DNA of 64,000 nt, taken from assembly GCA_002256935.1 (NCBI GenBank), contig NCGL01000001.1, positions 78,255 to 142,254 of the forward strand, in the 5' to 3' direction. Shown here piece by piece: positions 8,699-40,502 of this stretch. The notes below the pieces were generated by a model. It made no database searches, was not told the DNA's origin, and was given only the letters and a program-made list of their open reading frames with translations. How positions within the stretch are numbered: the stretch's first letter is position 1; every line of letters begins with the position of its first letter. The stretch is from Bdellovibrio sp. 28-41-41. Lineage in GTDB: Bacteria > Bdellovibrionota > Bdellovibrionia > Bdellovibrionales > Bdellovibrionaceae. Made by a program: the position numbers and the translations under genes.

Positions 8699-9088
8699 AT
8701 GAAATTCTTGCAGATTTTTACAGCATTGATGTTTCTAGTAAGTGCCGTGCCTACGTGGGCACAATCACAGTCTACGTTTAAACGAACAACAGCAACCATT
8801 CTGTTTTCTAGCATCGGCGGCGGCATTCTAGGGCTAAGCACACTTAGCTTTTACGGTAAGCCTCAGGAGCACACGGATAATATCACTAATGGCGTCCTGA
8901 TTGGATTAATAGCCGGCGTTAGTTATGTGTTGTATGATAATTACGATCAGCGTTCAGCCGCAAATGACAATCGGTTGCCCCAGAAATTACAGCAGCAAGC
9001 TCTATTTCAAGCATCAGATCCATCTACAAATAAAAAAAGAGGCCCTGATTTAAGCTGGCCTCTTTTGTCGTTTCAATATCAATGGTAG
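8699..9088 (+). CDS. Hypothetical exported membrane protein
   Basis: About 129 aa from the ATG at 8699 (in-frame GTG 8687 and TTG 8690 are alternatives). I chose 8699 because it gives a clean signal peptide, MKFLQIFTALMFLVSAVPTWAQ. Two further hydrophobic segments (LFSSIGGGILGLSTLSF and GVLIGLIAGVSYVLY) look like a glycine-rich membrane hairpin. The C-terminus is hydrophilic. No family recognised. It is transcribed divergently from deoC. A terminator-like hairpin lies inside its last 18 codons, which is unusual. Confidence 0.6.
   Translation: MKFLQIFTALMFLVSAVPTWAQSQSTFKRTTATILFSSIGGGILGLSTLSFYGKPQEHTDNITNGVLIGLIAGVSYVLYDNYDQRSAANDNRLPQKLQQQALFQASDPSTNKKRGPDLSWPLLSFQYQW
9035..9066. terminator. 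Hairpin with A/T-rich flanks inside the 3' coding end
   Basis: The arms AAAAGAGGCC and GGCCTCTTTT form a perfect 10-bp stem with a 12-base loop. It has the form of a bidirectional intrinsic terminator and sits between two convergent genes (the exported protein and pilT). It overlaps the last coding segment of the plus-strand gene. Its U-run is short. Confidence 0.55.
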
Positions 9089-11972: not shown

Positions 11973-12566
11973 ATGTACGCAGTAATTAAAACTGGTGGAA
12001 AACAATACACCGTAAAACCTGGCGATGTAGTTCAAGTTGAAAAATTAGAACAAAACTTAGGAACTGAATTTGAGATAACTGAAGTTCTTGTTGTTGGCGG
12101 TGACACAACTGTTATTGGCCAGCCTCTTGTAAAAGGTGCCAAAGTAACTGTAGTTGTGACTAAACAAGGTCGCGACAGAAAAGTGATCGTATTCAAAAAG
12201 AAACGTCGTCACTCTTTCAGAAAATTCAAAAATCACAAACAACCGTTCACAGAAATTTTTGTTAAATCAATCACTTCTGATGGCAAAACAGCAACTTCTG
12301 ATTCTCAACCAGTTGTAACTGATATGGCCGCGGTAAGAGCACAAAGAATTCAAGATAAAGTTCAAGCACGTAGAGAACGTGTTGAAGCTAAAGTCGGCAG
12401 CAGCAAAGCGGTTTCTCATGAAGAAACAAAAACGTTAACTACTAAGAAGAAAGCTTCTAAGAAAGTAGCGAAAAAAGCAGCAGCAAAAAAAGTGTCTCCA
12501 AAGAAAGCCGCAGCTAAGAAATCAGCTAAAGCTAAAAAGACATCTAAAAAAGCAACTAAGAAGTAA
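11973..12566 (+). CDS. rplU: 50S ribosomal protein L21 with long Lys/Ala-rich C-terminal tail
   Basis: The first ~105 residues are a complete bL21 (MYAVIKTGGKQYTVKPGD, KVIVFKKKRRHSFRKFKNHKQ), a 50S subunit protein that contacts 23S rRNA. The protein is 197 aa instead of the usual ~103. The extra ~85 residues start with a helical linker (AAVRAQRIQDKVQARRERVE) and end in some 45 residues made almost only of Lys, Ala, Ser and Thr (KKAAAKKSAKAKK type). This histone-H1-like composition suggests nucleic acid binding. A separate 24-aa peptide gene at 39.5 kb has the same composition. It is co-transcribed with rpmA, 26 nt downstream, and has a GGAGG Shine-Dalgarno. Confidence 0.95.
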   Translation: MYAVIKTGGKQYTVKPGDVVQVEKLEQNLGTEFEITEVLVVGGDTTVIGQPLVKGAKVTVVVTKQGRDRKVIVFKKKRRHSFRKFKNHKQPFTEIFVKSITSDGKTATSDSQPVVTDMAAVRAQRIQDKVQARRERVEAKVGSSKAVSHEETKTLTTKKKASKKVAKKAAAKKVSPKKAAAKKSAKAKKTSKKATKK

Positions 12567-37125: not shown

Positions 37126-37905
37126 ATGAAAGTTGAAACTAAAGTTGGGTTACTGTCAGTTTGCGCCATCGTTTTGATATTCGTTTTTGCCTATTTAGTC
37201 GGTTTGATTTCCCCATTTAGTGATTCTTATAATTTAAATGTAATGTATAACTTTGCAGGTGGTATCGAACAAGGGTCACCAGTGCGAGTTATGGGTATTA
37301 AAGTAGGGAAAGTTAAAAGCATTACATTTGTTCCTGATTTTAAAATGCCAGGCTCTAGCGAGGAAGTGAAGCTGCAGGTGCAAATCTCTGTGGATAAGAA
37401 AGCTTGGAAAACAGTCCGCCAAGATTCTAAGTTTTTTATTAATCTTGCAGGTGTTATCGGAGAAAAATTCTTAGAAGTTTCTCCGGGCGGGTTAGATCAG
37501 CCAGAACTTCAGCATAATGGATTCGTTCGCGGTGAAGATCCACCTCGAATTGACCAGTTAATTTCGCAAAGTTATGGTTTGGCCGGAAAAATAATAGAAT
37601 TGGTGAACAAAAACGAAGGCTCGATGGGCAGTATTATTTCCCAGATGGATAAGCTACTTAGTAATTTCAACAAAACACTGAGTCTGTTGGAAAAAACATC
37701 GAAAAATAAAGAAATGGGCCGGTTATTAGATAACTTTGTTAAAATCAGCGATGATTTGGCTTATTTAACTACCGGGTTACGATCTAAAAAAGCAGAAGAG
37801 AGCTATGATTTAATCCATAAATTACTTTTTCGCTTAGAACCGCTTGATGGTCCACAAATCCGCAAGTTCCTTCAGCAAGAAGGTATCAAAGCTAAAATTC
37901 TGTAG
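37126..37905 (+). CDS. mlaD: MCE-domain lipid-binding protein (MlaD-like)
   Basis: 259 aa. One N-terminal transmembrane helix (VGLLSVCAIVLIFVFAYLVGLI) precedes a single MCE domain (VMYNFAGGIEQGSPVRVMGIKVGKVKSITF). A periplasmic helical region follows (about 145-230). MlaD forms a hexameric ring that carries lipid from the inner-membrane complex. It lies 8 nt after the second permease and ends the transporter operon. No MlaC or MlaB gene is adjacent, which is common outside the gamma-proteobacteria. Confidence 0.9.
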   Translation: MKVETKVGLLSVCAIVLIFVFAYLVGLISPFSDSYNLNVMYNFAGGIEQGSPVRVMGIKVGKVKSITFVPDFKMPGSSEEVKLQVQISVDKKAWKTVRQDSKFFINLAGVIGEKFLEVSPGGLDQPELQHNGFVRGEDPPRIDQLISQSYGLAGKIIELVNKNEGSMGSIISQMDKLLSNFNKTLSLLEKTSKNKEMGRLLDNFVKISDDLAYLTTGLRSKKAEESYDLIHKLLFRLEPLDGPQIRKFLQQEGIKAKIL

Positions 37906-38009: not shown

Positions 38010-38648
38010 ATGATAAAAAACTTAGTAATCACCAGTCTTTTTGTAGGTCAGGCGCTATTGGCGGCGGAAGGTGACGTAAGCACAGTCATTAAATTAGCTA
38101 ACACAGTTAAAAGTGTGGCTCAAACATCCGAAGCATCACAAGAAAACATCGATGAAGCCGAAGTTAAACTACGTGAAGCTATTGAGTTATTAACATCAGG
38201 ATCCTCATCTGGTGGCGGTAGTAGCCACTCTGGCAGCATTGATTTTGTAGCGTGCTATGATTTCTCTTATCAAAAGTATTATTCAGGGTTGTCTTCAACG
38301 GCTGCGGCCGATAAAGCATCGGCAGCTTGTAAAGGTGGCGTGGATTTAGAAATCACAAAATTCTTATTCGAAAAGTACTACAGTGGCTTGAGCGCTGTAA
38401 ACGCAATGGATAAATCGGCTGCGGGTTCAGGAAAAAATCTGCGTGGGAAGTTAACATTAATCAAATTTATGTATGAAAAATACTATTCTGGAATGAGTTC
38501 TGTGAATGCGGCCGATAAAGCTGTTGAAGGCGCGGAAAAATTAAAGAAAAACAGCCTGGGTTGTTTAGAAAAACTATATCCTAACTACTACAGCTCTCAG
38601 AGTTCCGTTAATGCTATGAATAGCGCCGTTGCGGGTTGTGCAAAGTAA
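38010..38648 (+). CDS. Secreted protein with four ~35-residue YYSG repeats
   Basis: 212 aa; signal peptide MIKNLVITSLFVGQALLAA. After a helical region and a Ser/Gly spacer (about 63-77) come four imperfect repeats (around residues 80-108, 116-145, 152-176 and 186-212). Each centres on a KYYSGLS or similar core (KYYSGLS, KYYSGLS, KYYSGMS, NYYSSQS) and an NAMDKS or AADKA segment. Cysteines occur only in the first and last repeats. The pattern looks like a repeat-built extracellular or periplasmic protein; no named family recognised. Preceded by AAGGAG. Confidence 0.7.
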   Translation: MIKNLVITSLFVGQALLAAEGDVSTVIKLANTVKSVAQTSEASQENIDEAEVKLREAIELLTSGSSSGGGSSHSGSIDFVACYDFSYQKYYSGLSSTAAADKASAACKGGVDLEITKFLFEKYYSGLSAVNAMDKSAAGSGKNLRGKLTLIKFMYEKYYSGMSSVNAADKAVEGAEKLKKNSLGCLEKLYPNYYSSQSSVNAMNSAVAGCAK

Positions 38649-38859: not shown

Positions 38860-39471
38860 GTGAAGACATTAATTCTAATTTTCTCGCTGATTTTTACTCA
38901 AATATCTCAAGCTCAAGAAATTTCGACAGTAGAAATCACGCCGAATAGATCATCGAAGACACAAAATGAGACATCGACACCGTCTTCGAACACATATAAT
39001 TCGAATTGGGATATGCGTGATCACCGAAAATTAGGCGCCGGAATCGGATTAGCGGGAGTTTTTGGACAAATCGGCGGCGTTGCTGACATAAATTTTGACG
39101 CACAAAACGCGGCGCAGGTCGGATTTGGTAATGGATATGGGTTTAATACGTTTTTCGCGGGCTGGAAAACGAGTTTCGAAAGTCAGTTTGTGTCTCCCTA
39201 CATCACACTCGGATATTCTCGTTGGTACAATTCAGACAGTGTCGATCTTCGTGGTAACTCATATATTTTGGATCAAGTTTTATCAAAAAAGGAATTAGCG
39301 AATGGAAAAATCGGAGTCGATTTTCTGCTGGCGAATTTAGGTGTTCAGTACAATCAATTAGACACTGAGTGGATTGGAAATTCGTTCTTTTTAGAATTTA
39401 ATTTTCTTTACAGTACTAGTCGGGGAGCCTTGCTACCAGCGGCTTCTGTGGGATCGATCTATTACTTCTAG
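38860..39471 (+). CDS. Secreted outer-membrane beta-barrel-like protein
   Basis: 203 aa, GTG start with AAGGA upstream. The signal peptide is MKTLILIFSLIFTQISQA. The mature N-terminus is Ser/Thr/Asn-rich and low complexity; the rest has alternating hydrophobic and polar residues in glycine-rich strands (GAGIGLAGVFGQIGGVADINF) and ends in Phe (IYYF), the usual last residue of outer-membrane barrels. No family recognised. A terminator follows at 39486. Confidence 0.6.
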   Translation: MKTLILIFSLIFTQISQAQEISTVEITPNRSSKTQNETSTPSSNTYNSNWDMRDHRKLGAGIGLAGVFGQIGGVADINFDAQNAAQVGFGNGYGFNTFFAGWKTSFESQFVSPYITLGYSRWYNSDSVDLRGNSYILDQVLSKKELANGKIGVDFLLANLGVQYNQLDTEWIGNSFFLEFNFLYSTSRGALLPAASVGSIYYF

Positions 39472-39485
39472 ATCTATTTAGACCA

Positions 39486-39515
39486 AAAAAAACCCTCAGT
39501 TACCTGAGGGTTTTT
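39486..39515. terminator. Bidirectional intrinsic terminator
   Basis: AACCCTCAG and CTGAGGGTT pair over a 4-base loop (TTAC), with an A-run before and a T-run after, so it works for both strands. It separates the plus-strand barrel-like gene from the minus-strand 24-aa peptide gene. Confidence 0.85.
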
Positions 39516-39535: not shown

Positions 39536-39610
39536 CTATCTTTTTTTAGAAGCTTTCTTTTTAGTAGCTTTTTTCTTAGTAGCTTTTTTTGCAGCTTTCT
39601 TCTTTGCCAT
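39536..39610 (-). CDS. 24-aa Lys/Ala-rich peptide (histone-H1-tail-like)
   Basis: Found by hand-translating the minus strand. It runs ATG (39610) to TAG with 24 codons: Met-Ala-Lys-Lys-Lys, then a regular pattern of two or three Lys alternating with Ala, Thr or Ser (KKATKKKATKKKAS), ending Lys-Lys-Arg. More than half the residues are Lys. The Shine-Dalgarno AGGAGG lies 6 nt before the ATG, the strongest in this part of the window. A promoter-like pair (TTGTCG, 18 nt, TATAGT) lies upstream and a terminator downstream at 39486. The composition matches the C-terminal tail of L21 in this window, suggesting DNA or RNA binding. Confidence 0.75.
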   Translation of the reverse strand: MAKKKAAKKATKKKATKKKASKKR

Positions 39611-39666
39611 GTGCTCCTCCTGGAGATTATTAAAATGATGTAGTGTTAATTCACTACAAACTTAAA

Positions 39667-39696
39667 ACTATACTTATAGTCTTCCCAATGCGACAA
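39667..39696 (-). promoter_or_regulatory. Promoter for the 24-aa Lys-rich peptide gene
   Basis: Reading the minus strand, TTGTCG (39696-39691) is followed after 18 nt by TATAGT (39672-39667), a good sigma70-type pair. Transcription would start near 39660, leaving a ~50-nt leader before the peptide ATG at 39610. The region also lies upstream of the divergent Tad-like gene. Confidence 0.6.
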
Positions 39697-39731
39697 AGTT
39701 CGTCAACAAAAAAAAATCACTTGCACAGAAA

Positions 39732-40502
39732 TTGATACGATTTTCTTTCATGATGCTATCAATGGTTGTTTCATTTTCGATTTCGCTTCTCGGATTTTTA
39801 ATTCTAAAGCATGAGATTCACGAATTCTTTTTTAATTTCGGTCTTAACACTTCAATTTTCAATTTCATCATGTATTTTTTGGTGTCTGTTGTTTTAATTG
39901 TGACTCATTTTACATTCGAAACTCCGACCATCGTGTGGTCTTTCTATTTTTTTCTGATCATCATCGCACGATTCTTGCCACACTTGGCACGAAGTTTATT
40001 TGAAACTGAAATTCAGAATGAAAGTCTAAACTTTTTAGACAAAATAATTCTGGGAGTGTCTGCTGGGATCGCCTTAAGATCTTCCATGGACAAGTCACTT
40101 GAGGATATGACCGGTTGGCGACGTCGTCAGTTCCATGATTTGATTCGGACGGTGAATTTGGGGCAGAATGTTTCGAAAATCGTGTCGCCGACACTTAAAA
40201 ATTTGGCGGAGGAGTTGTTATTTGTGCAATCATCACAAGTTAAAACACTCGAACAACTTCAAAAACTGCGCCGGAATATAAAATTGCGACTAGATTTGAG
40301 ACATAGGTCGAGACAAGTGGCGCTAAATATGAATGTGCAAGCCGGATTTTTGATTTTCGTTTTCTTCGGAGTCAGTTTTTTTTCGTATTCCAACTATGAG
40401 ACAAAGTTATTTCTAAAATATCTCCTGCCGGCGACCATTTGGTTCAGTTTTGGCTGCCTAGGTTTGTTTTATTTGCAAAGGAATCACAAATGGAAGATCT
40501 AG
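39732..40502 (+). CDS. TadB-like inner-membrane protein (T2SSF-type)
   Basis: 256 aa (TTG 39732; an ATG at 39750 is an alternative; neither has a clear SD). It has membrane segments at both ends and a cytoplasmic T2SSF-type helical region (FLDKIILGVSAGIALRSSMDKSLEDM, HRSRQVALNMNVQAGFLIFVFF). This is the layout of the TadB inner-membrane platform protein for Flp pilus assembly. It overlaps the following TadC-like gene by 13 nt. A prepilin-like gene is at 20 kb; no TadA ATPase is in the window. Confidence 0.65.
   Translation: MIRFSFMMLSMVVSFSISLLGFLILKHEIHEFFFNFGLNTSIFNFIMYFLVSVVLIVTHFTFETPTIVWSFYFFLIIIARFLPHLARSLFETEIQNESLNFLDKIILGVSAGIALRSSMDKSLEDMTGWRRRQFHDLIRTVNLGQNVSKIVSPTLKNLAEELLFVQSSQVKTLEQLQKLRRNIKLRLDLRHRSRQVALNMNVQAGFLIFVFFGVSFFSYSNYETKLFLKYLLPATIWFSFGCLGLFYLQRNHKWKI

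Follow-up and report, generated by a model that had tools for sequence, protein, structure and literature searches.

A conserved mini-gene of the Bdellovibrio order encoding a histone-tail-like peptide without a histone, likely to help pack DNA

A lysine/alanine gene and its place in the order

The window (the whole stretch of 64,000 nucleotides of Bdellovibrio sp. 28-41-41 that was analysed) contains on its minus strand a reading frame of 24 codons, with an ATG start and a TAG stop, that encodes the peptide MAKKKAAKKATKKKATKKKASKKR. The features of the locus are the following.

39536..39610, minus strand: lysine/alanine peptide gene, MAKKKAAKKATKKKATKKKASKKR (open reading frame, orthologues and codon-position pattern)
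39616..39621, minus strand: Shine-Dalgarno sequence AGGAGG, five bases 5' of the ATG (sequence)
39639..39658, minus strand: inverted repeat of the 5'-UTR, TGTAGTG-AATTAA-CACTACA (pairing kept within the genus)
39678..39706, minus strand: conserved promoter, -35 TTGACG at 39706-39701, 17 nt, -10 AAGACT at 39683-39678
39692..39706, minus strand: dyad TTGAC-N7-GTC over the -35 box, a predicted operator (fixed-offset count)
39488..39515, minus strand: hairpin with T run, resembling an intrinsic terminator (program scan)
39732..40502, plus strand: divergent neighbour, uncharacterised (no Pfam or NCBIfam hit)
38860..39471, plus strand: convergent neighbour, uncharacterised (list of reading frames, synteny)
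37126..37905, plus strand: MlaD-domain gene, the synteny anchor (PF02470, 1.5e-16)

Lysine accounts for 13 of the 24 residues (54%) and alanine for six, with a single arginine. After the methionine the peptide uses K, A, T, S and R exclusively, has neither a hydrophobic stretch nor a signal sequence, and reads as MAKK followed by four pentamers. The initial annotation had noted codons that were more than half lysine; the count bears this out, and the fraction of 0.54 is the highest among the 814 reading frames of at least 20 aa in the window, where the runner-up has 0.30. Across 70 copies the composition is 51% K, 25% A and 14% T, and it is kept over lengths that run from 19 to 99 aa. The histone fold is absent, as the 24-aa frame stops after what would be the tail part. 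In a search of Pfam and NCBIfam profiles the peptide matched no family at E values up to 10, and its longer orthologues gave sub-threshold matches at best (NF038053, E 2.7, 8.2 bits for a cut-off of 80).

The free gene was found in 30 of the 39 genomes sampled in the order (G000-G006, G008-G012, G014, G016, G017, G019, G021-G024, G026, G028-G030, G032 and G034-G038), belonging to all ten sampled families. A pattern made of the Shine-Dalgarno sequence and the start detects it in seven of the 39, namely all six examined genomes of its own genus and one of another genus; divergent copies were reached with wider patterns and with a synteny search anchored on MlaD. The copy of G037 is cut by a contig end and has no stop. 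The mini-gene was not found in nine genomes: G015 and G020, scanned for several kb beyond MlaD; G025, where MlaD lies about 0.8 kb from the contig end; G013, where the MlaD match is partial; and G007, G018, G027, G031 and G033, where MlaD matches are weak or missing. G039 has a 43-aa form, whose ATG is at 3,670,617 on C1, 92 nt from the beginning of its TTGACG. In the genus of G039, 21 of 24 genomes carry a translated copy of 33-55 aa; among the other three, G056 gave an untranslated pattern match, and none was found in G040 and G054. Three genomes of the neighbouring order have no K-rich gene within 1.5 kb of MlaD. A strict pattern, run on 84,980 named species genomes (a set that may lack records very close to the window's genome), returned 12 stretches, ten of them from the same lineage by title and two from Planctomycetaceae. 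Two free lysine-rich genes each were seen in G012 (L042, L043), G024 (L065, L045) and G059 (L169, L021), the second copies of G012 and G024 being without the TTGAC promoter.

The surroundings of the gene are also conserved. Homologues of the genus's upstream neighbours (the 39732-40502 gene or the next one) flank the gene in 36 of 41 loci, homologues of the downstream ones in 32 of the 39 loci that have downstream sequence, and both in 31 of 41. The upstream gene points away from the mini-gene in 38/41 loci, and in 36/39 the downstream gene runs towards it (the exceptions are L043, L122 and L126). Outside the genus the median identity to the reference neighbours is 24%, 32% and 35%, and that for MlaD 64%. 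By eye, without profile support, the divergent neighbour looks like a membrane protein of the TadB/TadC type. At 38010-38648 on the plus strand lies a frame of 212 aa with imperfect repeats of the type YYSGLSSxNAADKA.

To be sure, low-complexity Lys/Ala sequence can arise by convergence, which counts against our main reading; the homology of the gene rests more on place, promoter and start than on the repeats. A case in point is G204, from another class, where a free 20-aa peptide, MAKKKAKKKAAKKTAKKKKK (L222), has a Shine-Dalgarno sequence and a hairpin-like end. It has no TTGAC in the 200 bases upstream, has other neighbours and sits elsewhere in the genome, so that it was not counted as an orthologue, and free tails may have had more than one origin. 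A second pattern match occurs in the same genome, on C117. The two Planctomycetaceae stretches (L182 and L187, in MAGs so titled) encode K/A/P-rich proteins, likewise free, of 62 and 74 aa; an AGGAGGA Shine-Dalgarno sequence precedes them, and the longer one gives a sub-threshold match to Hc2 (E 0.44); these were not counted as orthologues either.

Control signals and coding pattern

A complete, free-standing gene unit had been claimed for the locus, and its four elements, the reading frame, Shine-Dalgarno sequence, promoter and terminator, were all found conserved. The AGGAGG that had been reported is present at 39621-39616, and a strong Shine-Dalgarno sequence precedes 65 of the 70 copies, in a set (67 genomes) that is not random, as copies first had to be found and to carry at least GGAG or GAGG. 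The motif TTGAC[GC] lies within 170 bases upstream of 67 of these copies, the others being that of G011 and the second copies of G012 and G024; a -10 box of the form xAxxxT follows at a spacing of 17 nt in 46 of the 67. The initial annotation had placed the promoter at 39667-39696. A pair of hexamers matching the consensus does exist there, but the conserved promoter sits slightly upstream, at 39706-39678, and the earlier pair was set aside, its second hexamer not being kept in G002 or G003. The scan found three promoter-like sites in these 1.2 kb, for 2.5 expected from shuffles.

The -35 box is overlapped by a dyad. GTC is found at the TTGAC-N7 offset in 49 of the 67 copies, and at any other offset from 6 to 22 in at most two. 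The pattern TTTTNTTGACGN6GTC has a single genomic match, at the mini-gene, in six of seven genomes searched. In its exact form it is not vanishingly rare in these seven, given that the reversed control pattern gave three matches in two of them (one in G039, two in G014). A dyad that is peculiar to the mini-gene suggests a dedicated operator over its -35 box. Further down, the stem of the 5'-UTR keeps its seven pairs in four distinct sequences of the genus, three of the pairs by changes on both sides; its covariation score was reached by 6 of 500 shuffles, and the four sequences make a small sample. When looked for in other genera, the stem was not found in several. Many 5'-UTRs (e.g. L172) contain a recurrent stretch, ATCCTAGGAGGA, which places a partial complement of the Shine-Dalgarno sequence immediately ahead of the latter; 42 of the 70 copies have ATCC no more than 26 bases from the start, and the stretch might mask the Shine-Dalgarno sequence. 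At the other end, a run of at least five T follows the gene in 68 of 70 copies. The terminator had been described as bidirectional: the hairpin at 39515-39488 is there, and with a convergent gene next to it (38860-39471, plus strand) a role for both strands is plausible, although the scan reported the hairpin for the minus strand only.

The pattern of substitutions is that of a protein gene. In nine groups of copies of equal length, the variable columns are distributed as 10, 6 and 64 of 80 over codon positions 1, 2 and 3, and 56 variable codons differ synonymously only, for 15 that change the amino acid; one group (g6_43) shows no variation at all among its copies. The reading frame is thus kept by synonymous substitution in the orthologues, as in a protein-coding gene. 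With a frame kept in other genera and families and substitutions concentrated at third codon positions, the conservation of 39536-39610 is far beyond chance. Loss of the frame or of the Shine-Dalgarno sequence in relatives had been named beforehand as part of what would overturn the claim; both are conserved, and on this count it was not overturned. The mini-gene is a real and old protein gene.

Similar tails on other proteins

The same type of tail had been said to exist in this cell both fused and free. This is so at the C-terminus of ribosomal protein L21 (PF00829; window 11973-12566, plus strand), where a Lys/Ala-rich tail extends over about 45 residues, and also at the N-terminus of a SWIB-domain protein (PF02201) of the same genome. 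The SWIB protein was found in 23 of 24 relatives, with Lys/Ala tails at the N-terminus in those that were read. In comparison with these proteins, the mini-gene is separate, has no SWIB domain and lies in a different Shine-Dalgarno context.

Proteins with a histone fold can carry such a tail too. In family f12, which comes from another class, the start MAKKKATKKKA stands ahead of a histone fold (L203, L258, L259 and others). Thirty such loci were read. A lysine-rich extension reaches 10 aa or more in 15 of them and is short or missing in 14; the remaining one showed no start with a Shine-Dalgarno sequence. Among solved structures, the core of these proteins matches the DUF1931 histone 9qt0 (3e-9) as well as 8fvx and 8cmp (about 8e-5), the last two of which we take to be Bd0055. 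The N-terminal tails of bacterial FtF histones share this start and composition with the mini-gene peptide; by contrast, the mini-gene encodes the tail as a separate product, has a promoter and terminator to itself, and lacks a histone fold. Tails of FtF histones are described as common, mostly positive and devoid of conserved sequence (PMC11390915).

Within the order, a Bd0055-type histone is matched in all 39 genomes, and a lysine-rich tail was found on none of the 30 that were read. A second histone with a basic tail exists in a few members (G027, G028 and G035, with a short one in G034). A strict alternation between free and histone-fused tails was rejected, as G028 has a tailed histone together with the free gene. 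In the window's own genome the histone-fold genes lie elsewhere (G000:C59 and C129). One of them, L236 (C129, about 8760-8930), is a 160-aa protein with a cysteine-rich N-terminus plus a histone fold and resembles a ZZ-like histone, a label taken from the description in PMC11390915. Binding of tails by the ZZ domain was raised and then doubted there. The ZZ-like histone of the same genome could be a reader of the free tail; the pairing is weak, since six genomes with the free gene (G006, G008, G009, G014, G016 and G017) have one histone match each, in a count made with one query that could miss a distant second histone.

A tail that may act on DNA

The best reading is that of a free H1/Hc2-like chromatin tail, which likely binds DNA by charge. 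Chlamydial Hc2 (PF07382) and H1-like proteins (NF038053, the C-terminus of AlgP) are, as here, free-standing basic tails made of Lys/Ala-rich, repeat-like sequence, and the mini-gene peptide shares their low-complexity composition; neither it nor its longer orthologues match the curated profiles. Hc2 varies in length by lysine-rich pentamers (PMC2848022). It spans 165-237 aa, compared with 24 aa here. Peptides of KPAA repeats are reported to bind DNA in vitro (PMC9239181). An almost purely positive charge, spaced by Ala, Thr and Ser, over 19-99 aa with composition kept, fits a disordered polycation that acts by charge; a composition that is kept when length is free is polyelectrolyte-like. The tails fused to histone folds and to SWIB point to DNA as the target. 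Altogether we give a probability of roughly 0.58 to the reading that 39536-39610 is a coding gene, conserved in the order in its frame and mostly in its place, for a free Lys/Ala peptide that likely binds DNA by charge.

The presence of a similar tail on L21, in the same window, counts against this chromatin reading, as it tells that ribosomal proteins have such tails too. The peptide might thus bind RNA or ribosomes: as the free equivalent of the L21 tail, it would be placed on rRNA or assist in assembling ribosomes. Short basic ribosomal proteins do exist: Thermus THX and mycobacterial bL37, compared by description, have about 25 aa and are strongly basic, like the mini-gene peptide. The latter, however, is a repetitive Lys/Ala/Thr sequence with a five-fold range of lengths (19-99 aa), unlike a ribosomal protein bound to a fixed site. 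The L21 tail is the one link to the ribosome, and both the SWIB fusion and, in another class, the fusions to a histone fold speak for chromatin, so that we see the ribosome as a doubtful destination, if one to be taken seriously. It is more doubtful still that the peptide organises a polyanion other than DNA. AlgP, which has an H1-like lysine-rich tail, is reported to associate with polyphosphate granules and to space them, but the same source reports that its repeat tail itself binds DNA (PMC9239181), and no polyphosphate-metabolism gene was seen among the neighbours of the mini-gene.

Other readings are far less probable. In outline, a short lysine-rich frame with a terminator behind it resembles an amino-acid leader. 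Yet the downstream gene is convergent, in the window as in the 36 loci counted above, so that there is usually nothing to attenuate and no co-directional gene; with orthologues of up to 99 aa in addition, a lysine-sensing leader was rejected as barely credible. A short transcript framed by conserved signals (promoter, hairpin and terminator) would suit a small RNA in which the frame is incidental, but the excess of third-position changes (64 of 80 variable columns), the conserved Shine-Dalgarno sequence and start, and a search of the locus that returned no Rfam family at gathering score rule it out for practical purposes; nor does the locus overlap the eight attack-phase small RNAs tabled for HD100 (PMC3627812). 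Finally, the peptide is cationic and the lineage has predatory members, which might evoke a secreted, membrane-active peptide used against prey; MAKKKAAKKATKKKATKKKASKKR having neither a hydrophobic stretch nor a signal sequence, this is most improbable.

Returning to the chromatin tail, the peptide would be disordered and made in quantity from its strong-looking promoter and Shine-Dalgarno sequence, would neutralise charge on the DNA backbone, and would act beside the tail-less Bd0055-type histone. Two elements would set its dose, the dyad at the -35 box and, within the genus of the window, the hairpin of the 5'-UTR. A bolder proposal, which we regard as speculative and rather unlikely, is that of a histone tail in trans, where the Bd0055-type histone has no tail and the tail comes from a separate mini-gene with a private promoter, the dose of which could tune chromatin compaction separately from the histone. 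The histone fold itself bears the same tail in another class of the phylum.

The gene may have been missed because 24 aa is short for gene callers. Trypsin is predicted to cut MAKKKAAKKATKKKATKKKASKKR into pieces no longer than three residues. When the 43- and 55-aa orthologues served as protein queries, some 7,900 candidates shared words with them and none scored, probably an effect of composition correction. A recent HD100 proteome is stated to under-represent small proteins (PMC12546842), and the terms 'small protein' and 'SWIB' are absent from the main text of a paper on the HD100 nucleoid (PMC10627809). Searches of the open literature by subject terms listed no paper that describes the peptide in its title or at the start of its abstract.

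The mini-gene usually lies between the same neighbours in the Bdellovibrio order, and its product, a histone-tail-like peptide without a histone, likely helps to pack DNA. Predatory bacteria of this order serve as a main model for bacterial histones, and the histone best studied in them is tail-less. If our reading is true, a conserved gene made of a tail only would be a missing component of this chromatin. It would then be possible to ask whether a tail that acts by charge alone works when unattached to a histone, and whether cells set the compaction of their chromatin by the dose of the tail.
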